This document shows, in pieces, positions 25,573 to 63,530 of a DNA stretch of 64,000 nucleotides. Numbering within the stretch: the stretch's first letter is position 1; each line of letters begins with the position of its first letter. Source of the DNA: Tabrizicola flagellatus (GTDB taxonomy: Bacteria; Pseudomonadota; Alphaproteobacteria; Rhodobacterales; Rhodobacteraceae); contig NZ_VMDU01000006.1 of the NCBI RefSeq assembly GCF_008271465.1, positions 62,001 to 126,000 of the forward strand, in the 5' to 3' direction. Under the pieces are notes generated by a model that worked only from the letters and a program-made list of their open reading frames with translations, was not told the DNA's origin and made no database searches. Position numbers and translations under genes: made by a program.

Positions 25573-25630
25573 GCGGGCCATTACCCACGGCGGCGGGACA
25601 CCCTTCCCCAACGAAGGGCTTTTAGCTGGA
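25573..25630 (+). ncRNA. serC-motif leader RNA with terminator-like hairpin
   Basis: Upstream of serC lies a GC hairpin followed by a conserved-looking ATTACCCACGGCGGCGGGACA block. Then a 6-bp stem CCCTTC/GAAGGG (25601-25618) with a CCCAAC loop is followed by CTTTT. This layout matches, from memory, the alphaproteobacterial serC RNA motif found before serC-serA operons. The second hairpin resembles an intrinsic terminator, so attenuation is plausible; the ligand or mechanism is not known. Confidence 0.72.
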
Positions 25631-25638
25631 AGGCTACC

Positions 25639-26796
25639 ATGACTGACCTGACCCCGCCGGCCAAGCGCCCGGCCAATCCGCGCTTCTCCTCCGGCCCCTG
25701 CGCCAAGATCCCCGGATATTCCCTCGACATGCTGGCCGATGCCCCCCTCGGGCGGTCGCACCGCGCCGCCGTCGGCAAGGCCAAGCTGAAAGAGGCGATC
25801 GACCTGACCCGCGAAATCCTCGGCGTCCCCGCCGACTATCGCATCGGCATCGTGCCGGCCTCGGACACCGGGGCCGTGGAAATGGCGATGTGGTCGCTGC
25901 TCGGCGCGCGCCCCGTTGAAATGCTGGCCTGGGAAAGCTTCGGCGAGGGCTGGGTCACCGATGTGGTCAAGCAGCTGAAACTCGACGCCACGGTGCGCAA
26001 GGCGCCCTACGGGCAGATCGTGGATTTCGCGCAGGTCGATTTCGACAGGGACGTGGTCTTCACCTGGAACGGCACGACCAGCGGAGTGCGCCTGCCCAAC
26101 GGCGACGCGATACCGGCCACCCGCGCAGGGCTGACAATCTGCGACGCGACCAGCGCAGCCTTTGCCATGGACCTGCCCTGGGACAAGCTCGACGTCACCA
26201 CCTTCTCCTGGCAGAAGGTCCTGGGCGGTGAGGGCGCCCATGGCGTCCTGATCCTGAGCCCCCGTGCCGTCGAACGTCTGGAAAGCTACACCCCCGCCTG
26301 GCCGCTGCCCAAGATCTTCCGGCTGACCGCCAAGGGCAAGCTGATCGAAGGCATCTTCCAGGGCGAGACGATCAACACGCCGTCCATGCTGGCGAACGAG
26401 GATTACCTCGTCGCGCTGAAATGGGCCAAGTCGATCGGCGGCCTGCCGGCGCTGATTGCCCGCGCCAATGCCAACGCCAAGGTCGTCTGGGACTTCTGCG
26501 CCCAGAACCCCTGGATCGCGAACCTGGCCGAAGACCCCGCGACCGCCTCGACCACCTCGGTCTGCCTCAAGTTCACCGATCCCCGCATCACCGATGGCGA
26601 GGCCTTCGCCAAGGCCGTCGCCAAACGGATCGAGAAGGCCGGCGCGGGCTTCGACCTCGGCGCCTACCGCGACGCGCCCCCGGGCCTGCGGATCTGGTGC
26701 GGATCGACGGTCGAGACGGCGGATGTCCAGGCGCTGATGCCCTGGATCGCCTATGCCTTCGAGGCCGAGATCGCCGCGCTCGCACAGGCCGCTTGA
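25639..26796 (+). CDS. serC: Phosphoserine aminotransferase
   Basis: It transfers an amino group from glutamate to 3-phosphohydroxypyruvate. The 385-residue protein is the alphaproteobacterial type ([16 protein letters not shown] at the N-terminus) with the PLP lysine in [22 protein letters not shown] ribosome site precedes ATG 25639. serA follows 96 bases later, separated by two palindromes. Confidence 0.96.
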
Positions 26797-48681: not shown

Positions 48682-48708
48682 TGACTGCGGCCTGTGCCGG
48701 GTATAGGT
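48682..48708 (+). promoter_or_regulatory. Possible promoter for the VUT-family transporter
   Basis: TTGACT is followed, after 15 bases, by TATAGG, just past the mepA stop. The words are good but the spacer is short. Confidence 0.3.
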
Positions 48709-48765
48709 CGCACTCGCTCCGCCCTGGGGCCAAGTCTCCGCGACCTTGCCAAAACGGACCACAGC

Positions 48766-49386
48766 ATGCGCATCCTGATCCCCGGCGTTCTCGCCATGGC
48801 GGCGATCGTCGTCGCCTCGAACATCCTCGTCCAGTTCCCGCTGGGCGCCTTCCTGACCTGGGGGGCGCTGAGCTACCCCTTCGCCTTCCTCGTCACCGAC
48901 CTGACCAACCGCCTGCAGGGCCCCGCCGCCGCGCGCCGCGTGGTGCTGGCGGGATTCGCGGCGGGCATCCTCTGTTCCTTCGTCGGGACGCAGATTACGG
49001 GCGAATTCGGCCCGCTCGTCACCCTGCGCATCGCGCTGGGGTCGGGCCTTGCCTTCCTCTGCGCCCAGCTTCTGGACGTGGCCGTGTTCGACCGGCTGCG
49101 GCAGGGGTCGTGGTGGAGGGCGCCGCTGGTCTCCACTCTCCTGTCCTCGACGCTGGACACCGCGCTGTTCTTCACCATCGCCTTCTCGGCCGCGCTGACC
49201 TTCCTCGAACCGGGCAACGATGTCTCCTGGGCGACCGGGCCCGCGCCGCTTCTGGGCCTTGGACCCGAGGCCCCGTTCTGGGTTTCGCTGGCCGTTGGTG
49301 ACTGGCTGGTGAAACTTCTGCTCGCCCTGGTGGCATTGTTGCCATTTCGATTGGCGGTCGCGAAACTGGGCGCAAAGGTTGCGTGA
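48766..49386 (+). CDS. Queuosine-precursor transporter (YhhQ/VUT family)
   Basis: The 206-residue protein has about six hydrophobic helices and family features (SNILVQFPLG, LSYPFAFLVTDLTNR). Members take up queuine or preQ0/preQ1 for tRNA modification. I chose ATG 48766; the open frame upstream to 48694 lacks a ribosome site. I looked for a preQ1 aptamer in the 87-base leader and did not find one. Confidence 0.85.
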   Translation: MRILIPGVLAMAAIVVASNILVQFPLGAFLTWGALSYPFAFLVTDLTNRLQGPAAARRVVLAGFAAGILCSFVGTQITGEFGPLVTLRIALGSGLAFLCAQLLDVAVFDRLRQGSWWRAPLVSTLLSSTLDTALFFTIAFSAALTFLEPGNDVSWATGPAPLLGLGPEAPFWVSLAVGDWLVKLLLALVALLPFRLAVAKLGAKVA

Positions 49387-49392
49387 TTTCTT

Positions 49393-49420
49393 TTGACAAA
49401 CACAAAATCTGTGGCACGCT
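49393..49420 (+). promoter_or_regulatory. Candidate promoter of the small 49.4-kb transcript
   Basis: TTGACA (49393-49398), a 16-base AT-rich spacer, then CACGCT. The -35 is a perfect consensus; the -10 is poor. The start of transcription would be near 49427. Confidence 0.5.
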
Positions 49421-49440
49421 CCCCCTATCGGCAACTTTTC

Positions 49441-49457
49441 GAAAGGAGGTGATCCAG
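49441..49457 (+). promoter_or_regulatory. Extended Shine-Dalgarno: 17-nt complement of the 16S rRNA 3' end
   Basis: GAAAGGAGGTGATCCAG is the exact reverse complement of the conserved 16S tail CTGGATCACCTCCTTTC. The core GGAGG (49445-49449) sits 7 bases before the GTG start, so it is also correctly placed as a ribosome site. The last G is the first base of the start codon. Confidence 0.85.
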
Positions 49458-49513
49458 TGTCTAGAGTGATATTGGAGAGAGGTGTCGGGACAGTCGGGAG
49501 GGGAATTTTCTAA
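49457..49513 (+). CDS. 18-residue small ORF, possible leader or small protein
   Basis: GTG start to TAA; product MSRVILERGVGTVGRGIF, a basic amphipathic peptide with alternating Gly/Val. It uses codons that look rare in this GC-rich genome: AGA twice, ATA, AGG and TTG in only 18 positions. It is preceded by the 17-nt 16S-complementary ribosome site. No family is recognised. The strong site argues that it is translated; the peptide itself may or may not matter. Confidence 0.6.
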   Translation: MSRVILERGVGTVGRGIF

Positions 49514-49583
49514 GGGCAGCCCCTGGAAAATGGACCACCGATTGGATTTGGATGCCTAACTGGCCCATCTCCTTGGATCTCGG

Positions 49584-49620
49584 AAAGGGTTGCCTGAGCA
49601 GGGCAACCCTTTCTCTATTT
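49584..49620 (+). terminator. Rho-independent terminator of the small transcript
   Basis: Perfect 11-bp stem AAAGGGTTGCC / GGCAACCCTTT with a 7-base loop, followed by CTCTATTT. It separates the small transcript from the amide-sensing operon 236 bases further on. Confidence 0.85.
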
Positions 49621-49839: not shown

Positions 49840-49856
49840 GACGTTTGGGGAATGTC

Positions 49857-50936
49857 TTGAAACGGCAGATCAAGCTGGGGCTCCTCCTGTCGCGCTCGGG
49901 CAGCTATTCGCTGATCTCCGAAGCCTGCCGCTCCGGCGCGCTGGCCGCCATCGCCCGGGTCAACGGTGACCCTGCCCTCGACCTGTGCTTTCAGCCGGTA
50001 GAGCGCGACCCCGGCGGCAACATCGACGCCTACGCACCGCTCTGCGAGGAGATCCTGCGCGACAGCGGGGCGCGGCATGTGCTGGGCTGCATCACCTCGT
50101 GGAGCCGGAAGGAAGTGATCCCGACCGTGGAAAAATACGGCGGGACGCTCTGGTATGCGGTCCCCTACGAGGGGTTCGAGGCCTCGGACCATGTGGTCTA
50201 TACCCATGCCTGTCCGAACCAGCACCTTCTGCCGCTGCTCGACTGGGTGATGCCGGCGCATGGGCGGCGGGCCTATCTGGTGGGCTCGAACTACATCTGG
50301 GGCTGGGAGATGAACCGCCTCGCCCGGGAACGCATCACCGCTGCCGGCGGCGAGGTCGTGGGGGAACGTTACCTGCCGATCGGCTCGCCCGAGGTGGGGC
50401 GGATGATCGAGGAGCTGCGCTTTGCCCGGCCGGATTTCATCCTGAACTCGCTGATCGGCCCGTCGTCCTATGAATTCATGGCCGCCTACCGGGCGCTTGG
50501 CCTTGAGGACGCGGCCTTCCGGCCCGACCGCTGCCCGGTCCTGTCCTGCAACGTGACCGAATGCGAACTGCCGGCGCTCGGCCAGGCGGCCGAAGGGCTG
50601 GTGGCGGCCGGTCCCTATTTCCGGGGCGTCGCGGGTTGGCCGGGCGCGGGCAGCTTCGGGTCCTCGCACGAGGCGGCGGCCTTCTCTGCCGTCATGGAAC
50701 TGGCGCGGCTTCTGGCGGGGCGCGAAGGGGCCGAGAACTGGCCGCTGTCGCAGCTTCTGGCCGACCGCGCGGGGATCGTCGATCCCGAGACGCATCACAC
50801 GGTCCTGCCGGTCATCATCGCGCGGGTCGAGGGCGGGGCGTTCCGGCCCATCAAGCGCTGGGAGGCGGTGGCGGGCGACCCCTACCTGACGCGCAGCCGC
50901 CAGACCCTGGCTCCGGCCCTGCGGGTGGTGTCATGA
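49857..50936 (+). CDS. amiC: AmiC-like amide-binding sensor (periplasmic-binding-protein fold)
   Basis: A 359-residue type I binding-protein fold without a signal peptide (KRQIKLGLLLSRSGSYSLIS at the N-terminus), hence cytoplasmic. In Pseudomonas AmiC binds short amides and sequesters the antiterminator AmiR when ligand is absent. I chose the TTG at 49857: GGGGA is 5 bases upstream and it gives the usual MKRQIK start. Its stop overlaps the start of the ANTAR gene (ATGA). A role as transporter binding protein (UrtA-like) is less likely because export signals are absent. Confidence 0.8.
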   Translation: MKRQIKLGLLLSRSGSYSLISEACRSGALAAIARVNGDPALDLCFQPVERDPGGNIDAYAPLCEEILRDSGARHVLGCITSWSRKEVIPTVEKYGGTLWYAVPYEGFEASDHVVYTHACPNQHLLPLLDWVMPAHGRRAYLVGSNYIWGWEMNRLARERITAAGGEVVGERYLPIGSPEVGRMIEELRFARPDFILNSLIGPSSYEFMAAYRALGLEDAAFRPDRCPVLSCNVTECELPALGQAAEGLVAAGPYFRGVAGWPGAGSFGSSHEAAAFSAVMELARLLAGREGAENWPLSQLLADRAGIVDPETHHTVLPVIIARVEGGAFRPIKRWEAVAGDPYLTRSRQTLAPALRVVS

Positions 50937-51535
50937 AGCGCCGCCCGATCCGTATCCCGAACCTCGGCGGCGCGCAGGCGATCATCCTGCACCGCCCCCA
51001 TGCCACCGTGCAGGCGTTGACGCGGCAGCTGACGGCGATCGGGTTGCAGGTCACGCAGTCCTGGCCGGACCTCGGTCCCGAGGCGATGGCGGCCGACTAC
51101 ATCTTCTTCGACGCCGACATGGGCCATGACGGCATGTTCCCCTGGGAGCCGGGCCAGCCGCCGATCCCGATGATCGCGCTGATCGGCTCCGAGGCGCCGG
51201 GCCGGATCGAGTGGTCGCTGAAGGCGGGCGCGCACGCCCAGCTTCTGAAGCCCGTGGGCGACAGCGGGGCGTACTCGGCGCTTCTGATCGCGCGCGACAC
51301 CTTCGATGCGCAAAAGGCCCTGTCGGCCGAGATCGCCGATCTGCGGCGGCGGCTGGAGGACCGGCAGACGGTGGTCCGCGCGGTGACGCTCCTGGCCGCG
51401 CGGGGCAAGTCCGACGCCGAGGCCTATGCGCAACTCCGCCGGATGGCGATGGCCTGGCGGATCAGCTTCGAGGACGCGGCCGCGCGGATCGTCGCGGCGC
51501 AAGGGGGGGCGGATGACCGATCTGAGCGCGGCTGA
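50933..51535 (+). CDS. amiR: AmiR/NasT-type antiterminator with ANTAR domain
   Basis: The 200-residue protein has an N-terminal pseudo-receiver domain (about 12-125; FFDADMGHDG, LKPVGDSGA), a coiled-coil linker and a C-terminal ANTAR RNA-binding domain (about 140-195; LAARGKSDAEAYAQLRRMAM). It would bind leader RNA and prevent termination when released by AmiC. It overlaps amiC by 4 and the permease gene by 23 bases, so regulator and transporter are on one mRNA. Confidence 0.87.
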   Translation: MKRRPIRIPNLGGAQAIILHRPHATVQALTRQLTAIGLQVTQSWPDLGPEAMAADYIFFDADMGHDGMFPWEPGQPPIPMIALIGSEAPGRIEWSLKAGAHAQLLKPVGDSGAYSALLIARDTFDAQKALSAEIADLRRRLEDRQTVVRAVTLLAARGKSDAEAYAQLRRMAMAWRISFEDAAARIVAAQGGADDRSERG

Positions 51536-63107: not shown

Positions 63108-63530
63108 ATGCTGCACATCACCGACACCCTGGCCATCGCCGAGTGGGAACTGAGCGAAAGCTTCATGCGCGCCTCGGGCCCCGGCGGGCAGAACGTCAAC
63201 AAGGTCTCGACCGCCGTCGAGCTGCGGTTCGAGGCCGAGCGTTCGCCGCATCTGACGCCGGGGGTCAAGGCGCGGCTGAAGCGGCTGGCGGGGCGGCGCT
63301 GGACGACGGAAGGGGCCATCGTCCTCCAGGTGGACGAGACGCGCAGCCAGGCCCGCAACCGCGAGATCGCACGCGAAAGGCTCGTCGAACTGATCCGCGC
63401 CGCGCTGGTCGCGCCGAAACGGCGGATCGCGACCAAGCCGACGCTTGCCAGCCAGCGCCGCCGGGTCGCCGCCAAGACTGCGCGGGGCCAGGTCAAGGCC
63501 CTGCGCGGCAAGGTCGGGGACGAGGAATGA
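63108..63530 (+). CDS. arfB: Alternative ribosome-rescue hydrolase ArfB
   Basis: The 140-residue protein releases ribosomes stalled without a stop codon. It has the release-factor GGQ motif in SGPGGQNVNKVST (GGQ at 26-28) and a basic Arg/Lys-rich C-terminal tail (KPTLASQRRRVAAKTARG) that enters the mRNA channel. The length is typical. Its stop overlaps the next start (ATGA). Confidence 0.94.
   Translation: MLHITDTLAIAEWELSESFMRASGPGGQNVNKVSTAVELRFEAERSPHLTPGVKARLKRLAGRRWTTEGAIVLQVDETRSQARNREIARERLVELIRAALVAPKRRIATKPTLASQRRRVAAKTARGQVKALRGKVGDEE

Follow-up and report, generated by a model that had tools for sequence, protein, structure and literature searches.

Why does a perfect complement to the 3' end of 16S rRNA stand directly in front of a GTG codon in the genome of Tabrizicola flagellatus? 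The window, which is the whole stretch of 64,000 nt analysed here, carries the exact 17-mer GAAAGGAGGTGATCCAG at 49441-49457 on the forward strand, and a sequence-only reading had claimed for it 17 contiguous base pairs with the 16S tail. A whole-genome scan of the 3.6-Mb assembly found this single exact copy, the runner-up site having 2 mismatches. A search of the source-genome assembly with the 16S model RF00177 gave no match; the 16S 3' ends compared were those of four Rhodobacterales (Paracoccus, Thioclava, Tritonibacter and Sulfitobacter) and of Ensifer, all five of which read GGCTGGATCACCTCCTTTCTAAGGA, and all 17 bases of the 17-mer pair with each of them, as had been claimed. The same reading had judged a chance match unlikely, which agrees with two window matches at up to 3 mismatches, where 100 shuffles averaged 0.10, and with the retention of the element in relatives.

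The spacing from the GTG was also borne out, as the gap between GGAGG and GTG is 7 nt, which suits initiation and places the element in the Shine-Dalgarno (SD) position ahead of a short open reading frame (ORF). The 17-mer ends in the very G that opens the GTG, and formation of all 17 pairs should therefore be incompatible with this codon occupying the P site; a shorter part of the 17-mer can act as an extended SD. Conservation is highest over the first 14 bases, GAAAGGAGGTGRTC, which we take to be complementary to the 16S tail beyond helix 45, with the helix boundary assumed. The base immediately 5' of the 17-mer is variable among copies, and the complementarity thus stops short of the precursor 16S.

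The element forms the 5' part of a unit of some 190 nt that stands by itself and comprises an inferred promoter, a maximal SD, an 18-codon ORF and a terminator (Table 1). Transcription is expected to start near 49429-49433. The promoter is absent from the list returned by a consensus promoter scan, as is the 49583-49613 stem-loop from that of a consensus terminator scan; the block TTGACAAACACAAAATCTGTG recurs 5' of the RNA within the genus. The promoter spacer also holds an inverted repeat, CACA-AAATC-TGTG (49401-49413), which recurs in many copies from the genus and may be an operator.

Table 1. Features of the small RNA locus and its neighbourhood, in window coordinates.
Feature	Position	Strand	Basis
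Upstream neighbour, Vut_1 family transporter (start codon uncertain)	48694..49386	+	PF02592, 102 bits
Inferred promoter: TTGACA 49393-49398, weak -10-like CACGCT 49415-49420	49393..49420	+	read from letters
Whole small RNA, divergent RF01867 (CC2171) homologue	49433..49620	+	RF01867 match, fold stability
Extended Shine-Dalgarno site, 17 nt, complementary to the 16S rRNA 3' end	49441..49457	+	letters, genome scan, 16S ends of relatives
Start-codon hairpin: UCCAGUGU 49453-49460 with AUAUUGGA 49469-49476	49453..49476	+	RNAalifold, 37 sequences
18-codon ORF, GTG start, TAA stop, MSRVILERGVGTVGRGIF	49457..49513	+	letters; Rhodobacterales comparison
Internal 16S-tail mimic CAUCUCC, within ACTGGCCCATCTCCTT 49559-49574; pairs with SD core GGAGGUG 49445-49451	49566..49572	+	inverted repeat I2, MFE fold, alignment
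Intrinsic terminator stem-loop, perfect 12-bp arms, then TCTATTT	49583..49613	+	inverted repeat, fold, alignment
arfB-like GGQ (RF-1 domain) gene	63108..63530	+	PF00472

The unit is related to a catalogued RNA. The CC2171 family, RF01867, which reportedly originated in a Caulobacter small RNA (sRNA) described by Landt et al. 2008, matches 49433-49610 from the first to the last position of its model (1-159) with 30.7 bits and an E-value of 4.9e-5. The gathering score of RF01867 is 75 bits, and at the default Rfam cutoff the RNA goes undetected in the window, while a search by E-value finds it; because the score lies below the curated threshold, we refer to a divergent homologue and not to a member. 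The 5' element of the family (the anti-16S stretch plus UGUCU) is present in a gapless alignment at model positions 1-30, and so is the terminal GC-rich hairpin or terminator. RF01867 scores above its cutoff at 8/20 sister loci with the same element. Amongst the genomes of the class, 96/385 match the model at E<=0.01, 13 of them above the cutoff. In 14 control genomes Caulobacter gave matches, and Deinobacterium, which lies outside the class, gave one match below the cutoff, indicating that weak RF01867 matches can be due to chance there. On sequence grounds, the window RNA is a new branch of this catalogued sRNA type.

Literature on CC2171/RF01867 yielded no assigned function; the relevant mentions were a table of improved structures in the Rfam 15 paper, where CC2171 is named, and a table from Mesorhizobium huakuii in which MH_s33 is assigned to RF01867 (PMC5596092), and an earlier mention of the SD or the ORF is possible. 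As described in the latter source, 34/35 non-riboswitch candidates gave RNA-seq products, the exception being MH_s6 (PMC5596092), which places MH_s33 amongst the RNA-seq-supported candidates and means that a relative is transcribed. A literature search by sequence strings returned, among the matches listed, only a common 16S primer for the DNA string.

To follow the RNA independently of the 5' element, we used a covariance model of the body only (R1), for which 33 Rhodobacterales sequences were trimmed of their first 27 nt (17-mer plus start). R1 matches 214/248 genomes of the same family, or 213/247 genera, with 10 of the 214 matches being weak (E >1e-4); the exact pattern AAAGGAGGTGATCNRNTGTC occurs in 103/248 family genomes. 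Given that RF01867 stays below its cutoff on the window copy, this RNA type is far wider than the Rfam cutoff shows. We then read 70 loci, of which 30 had been listed automatically and 40 were picked for lacking the exact motif. A 21-mer spanning the element is kept with 0-3 mismatches in 67/70 (24 unchanged, 36 with one mismatch, 6 with two and 1 with three); of the remaining three, L271 and L282 have a 1-nt deletion within the element, and the 5' match of L300 was not located. The sequence-only reading had proposed a check for conservation in Rhodobacterales, and the element is indeed kept in relatives, upstream of a short ORF.

Element positions 4-11 show zero mismatches in the 70 loci. The commonest substitution puts G in place of A at position 12 (33/67 aligned loci; C in 4/67). 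This position is unpaired in the RNA consensus fold and faces a U in 16S, so that the change retains a wobble pair. With GU allowed, 222/229 distinct sites pair with 16S over 14-17 contiguous bases, and the start codon begins with G in 186, A in 39, T in 4 and C in 0 of the 229; these sites were mostly found by motif, include a few unrelated ones and come from a search in which AGGAGGTG and a start-codon TG were obligatory. There is usually one copy of the RNA per genome. Four further matches to the 17-mer (L009-L012) were the 16S genes themselves, with CCGCAGG following the match, and were set aside. A plasmid search gave no match and viral contigs gave six. In one IMG/VR contig (L190), GAAAGGAGGTGATCCAATGTC precedes a longer viral ORF with no evident kinship to the RNA family, which means that such long SDs occur elsewhere too.

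The ORF behind the element is kept in length and frame. All 56/56 Rhodobacterales-type ORFs, a set that was not selected by length, have 18 codons and end in TAA (20), TAG (20) or TGA (16). Of the 46 loci found by R1 that have motif changes, 41 have 18 codons, one has 17, one has 19 and 3 were unaligned. No in-frame stop falls within the first 14 codons in any of 180 sequences, which were mostly motif-found and include a few unrelated sites, while in the two shifted frames a stop occurs within 18 codons in 33 and 34 of the 56 Rhodobacterales-type sequences and within 14 codons in 48 and 37 of the 124 others. In the MSHC group (46 aligned), indels in multiples of three make up 31/46 of those within the ORF and 45/169 of those past the stop. 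The 37 aligned Rhodobacterales have 0 indels within the ORF and 130 past the stop, a count that is partly built in, as the sequences in alignments A1 and A3 come from a group picked for its 18 codons. The share of synonymous changes is only moderately highest in frame 0 (0.41 vs 0.31 and 0.22), which speaks against a functional peptide. The RNA thus shows the conserved start, frame and stop that characterize a translated small mRNA or dual-function sRNA. At four loci (L082, L112, L124 from Azospirillum, and L162) the same extended SD precedes an ORF of 56-59 aa (MSHGA...) that resembles a small exported protein and is perhaps a recruited version.

The RNA is also predicted to be strongly structured. 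The fold of 49430-49620 reaches -82.6 kcal/mol (z -4.6), and 0/200 shuffles were equally stable. For 37 Rhodobacterales sequences, RNAalifold returned the terminator, the start-codon hairpin, a short stem-loop past the stop codon, and a pairing of the SD core with a downstream CAYCUCC, with 97.4% of the alignment cells paired against 93.3% in shuffles. In the terminator, two-sided changes were seen at 11/12 pairs. The SD-mimic helix (98.5% of cells paired) and the start-codon hairpin (97.3%) showed one-sided variation, few broken cells and no two-sided compensation in these 37 sequences, because the SD side hardly varies.

The strength of the SD-mimic duplex relative to shuffles differed between clades. 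The comparison was limited to terminator-bearing sequences (31/39, 45/65, 11/14, 8/10 and 13/20 kept in the five groups; one MSHC sequence with a short body was also dropped). The mean rank out of 100 was 10 in Rhodobacterales, 3 in Bradyrhizobium, 19 in the MSSE group, 28 in MSHC and 27 in the mixed group, with z below -2 in 9/31 Rhodobacterales. By this measure the predicted duplex stands out only moderately in Rhodobacterales and faintly among MSHC and mixed sequences, and the hiding of the SD by a 16S mimic in every clade is weakly supported outside Rhodobacterales and Bradyrhizobium. The 5'-3' helix of RF01867, between UCAUUGU early in the ORF and ACAAUGG before the terminator, was tested in five groups (129/148 sequences with a terminator found). 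It beat permuted arms in MSHC, MSSE and mixed sequences (0/200 as good) and failed in Rhodobacterales (197/200 permutations as good) and Bradyrhizobium. The RNAalifold consensus of the MSHC group was poor.

Folding of naked RNA at increasing nascent lengths predicts that the SD in the window is mostly open (0.70-0.92) at 60-120 nt and closed from 140 nt. Opening of the 14-nt site is predicted to cost 11.7 kcal/mol against a gain of 23.5 kcal/mol from pairing with 16S, so that 16S pairing would repay the opening of this core. The start codon is predicted to be paired at every nascent length of at least 50 nt, which counts against translation, as does a report on Caulobacter that describes ncRNA regions as mostly untranslated (PMC4117421). 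A passage of a Caulobacter ribosome-profiling paper gives two formerly predicted ncRNAs, unnamed there, as translated.

Weighing these observations, we lean towards reading 49433-49620 as a translated CC2171-type small RNA with a ribosome-responsive fold. We infer that the RNA is transcribed and translated and that binding of the 30S subunit competes with the internal mimic. The RNA would act as a switch in which the real 16S tail and the internal mimic are two partners of the same sequence for one SD. On the nascent RNA, a 30S subunit would dock at the SD and go on to translate the ORF; after some 130-140 nt had been made, the mimic would fold back and close the SD site, and the long match to 16S would let the 30S subunit compete with this fold. 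The state of the RNA could in this way report whether ribosomes had been loaded in time. A bolder version is a class-wide switch sensing 30S availability, with the 16S tail and the mimic competing for one SD and with loading setting the fold, lifetime and output of the RNA; we put it forward tentatively and regard it as rather doubtful. If true, the CC2171 family would be a sensor of ribosome status and not an ordinary base-pairing sRNA, and should ribosome loading control the RNA, free 30S subunits would be reported directly by an RNA. The family also gains a testable function, as its most conserved feature is a complementarity to the 16S tail ahead of a frame-conserved mini-ORF. The sequence-only reading was right about a conserved match in SD position that is not due to chance; it missed the structured RF01867-homologue sRNA with its own terminator and the predicted hiding of the SD by a mimic of the 16S tail. 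Its proposals that the site might capture 30S subunits tightly, titrate them or respond to 16S 3'-end processing are conjectural.

Our first strong idea had been a cis-acting leader, or attenuator, coupling the synthesis of a ribosome-rescue factor to ribosome loading. The gene downstream, which we take to be arfB from its GGQ domain and size, adjoins the RNA in most relatives within the genus; 47 loci have a gene for an arfB-like protein on their downstream side (a single BLAST cluster), and a GPGGQ motif lies at most 420 nt away, past the terminator, in 27/36 of the Rhodobacterales-type loci listed. The idea was dropped once the gene was found elsewhere, more than 2 kb away, in 6/30 genus genomes showing both, including the source genome, with the 17-mer intact. 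Of the separated copies, G026 (L021) was read and is intact, and four others are known as exact 17-mers alone. In the window the distance is 13.5 kb and the interval is filled with transport and other genes. Outside Rhodobacterales the nearest downstream ORF, picked heuristically, is on the opposite strand at 9/13 loci, and the folds computed here show no antiterminator. An arfB leader is thus most improbable. This separation and the opposite-strand neighbours in other orders suggest that the RNA stands alone, and to judge from its genomic settings it appears to do so, without a fixed downstream gene. An ordinary non-coding sRNA, with a 5' end that targets mRNAs through anti-SD-like sequence and a 16S complementarity that is a by-product, would accord with the filing of RF01867 as an sRNA and with a passage on alphaproteobacterial sRNAs, some of which use anti-SD motifs (PMC3927594). 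The start, stop and frame signals speak against it, as does a match of 14-17 bases to the 16S tail itself, and we hold it to be highly unlikely.

Two further explanations centre on the ORF or on the SD. If the 18-aa peptide of a small mRNA were the functional product, the long SD would serve very strong initiation, and the conservation of the frame and recognisable peptides at the level of clades, such as MSRVILERGVGTV and MSYTKRCHLAGIAR, would be expected. The peptides, however, look unrelated between clades while the 5' RNA element is shared, the entropy by codon position is flat (0.69/0.65/0.66), and in some clades the coding parts coincide with the segments predicted to pair with the SD, all of which makes a functional peptide distinctly unlikely. 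Such clade-divergent peptides next to a kept frame, start and stop make it more likely that the act of translation matters, or an RNA which translation reshapes or stabilises, rather than the peptide. The RNA could alternatively hold the 30S subunit through a 14-17 bp duplex and so brake translation, leaving the ORF incidental. This would explain a complementarity that reaches far past normal SD length and is mostly kept even at the position unpaired in the RNA's own fold; full 17-bp pairing would extend to the start codon and favour a non-productive complex, and the predicted net pairing energy for the 17 nt is -15.9 kcal/mol. A conserved start, stop and frame would be needless for such a role, though, the usual single copy per genome would hardly titrate many ribosomes, and in Rhodobacterales the predicted fold hides the element; we consider this explanation unlikely.

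The reading that we prefer can be set beside known systems. RF01867/CC2171 shares with the window RNA the 5' element cAAcaAucGAAAGGAGGUGAUCCAGUGUCU, a similar size and a terminal hairpin; the body in the window differs in having an SD-mimic helix and a start-codon hairpin instead of a supported UCAUUGU/ACAAUGG closing helix. The extended SD sites described for Staphylococcus aureus (PMC13009471) are alike in their extended pairing, and leader-peptide uORFs figure there as well. They are presented in that source as a general rule of initiation, whereas the window type is usually one RNA per genome that pairs with the 16S tail and is predicted to sequester itself. In Sinorhizobium, the dual-function sRNA and leader peptide rnTrpL-peTrpL (PMC10117765) is likewise a short RNA, with an ORF of 14 aa; rnTrpL is described as leaderless and derived from the trp attenuator, in contrast to the maximal SD of the window RNA and its lack of a fixed downstream gene. 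SD/anti-SD mimicry is also found in SmelA075, SmelA099 and RS0680a, sRNAs of the same class that, according to a passage on them, carry the anti-SD loops CCUCCUCCC (PMC3927594), while the window RNA carries the SD side together with a mimic able to pair with it.

As for the surroundings of the RNA, the Vut_1 gene belongs to a BLAST cluster found upstream at 54 loci. Between the RNA and the arfB-like gene, the window holds at 49845-51535 a gene for an AmiC-like binding protein (Peripla_BP_5), then an ORF, which we take to be a possible AmiR-type regulator, and then peptide transporter genes. One genome (L172) has the alphaproteobacterial tmRNA gene some 1.2 kb away from the RNA. Elsewhere in the window, a serC leader RNA (RF00517) was identified at 25591-25642 with 67.4 bits.
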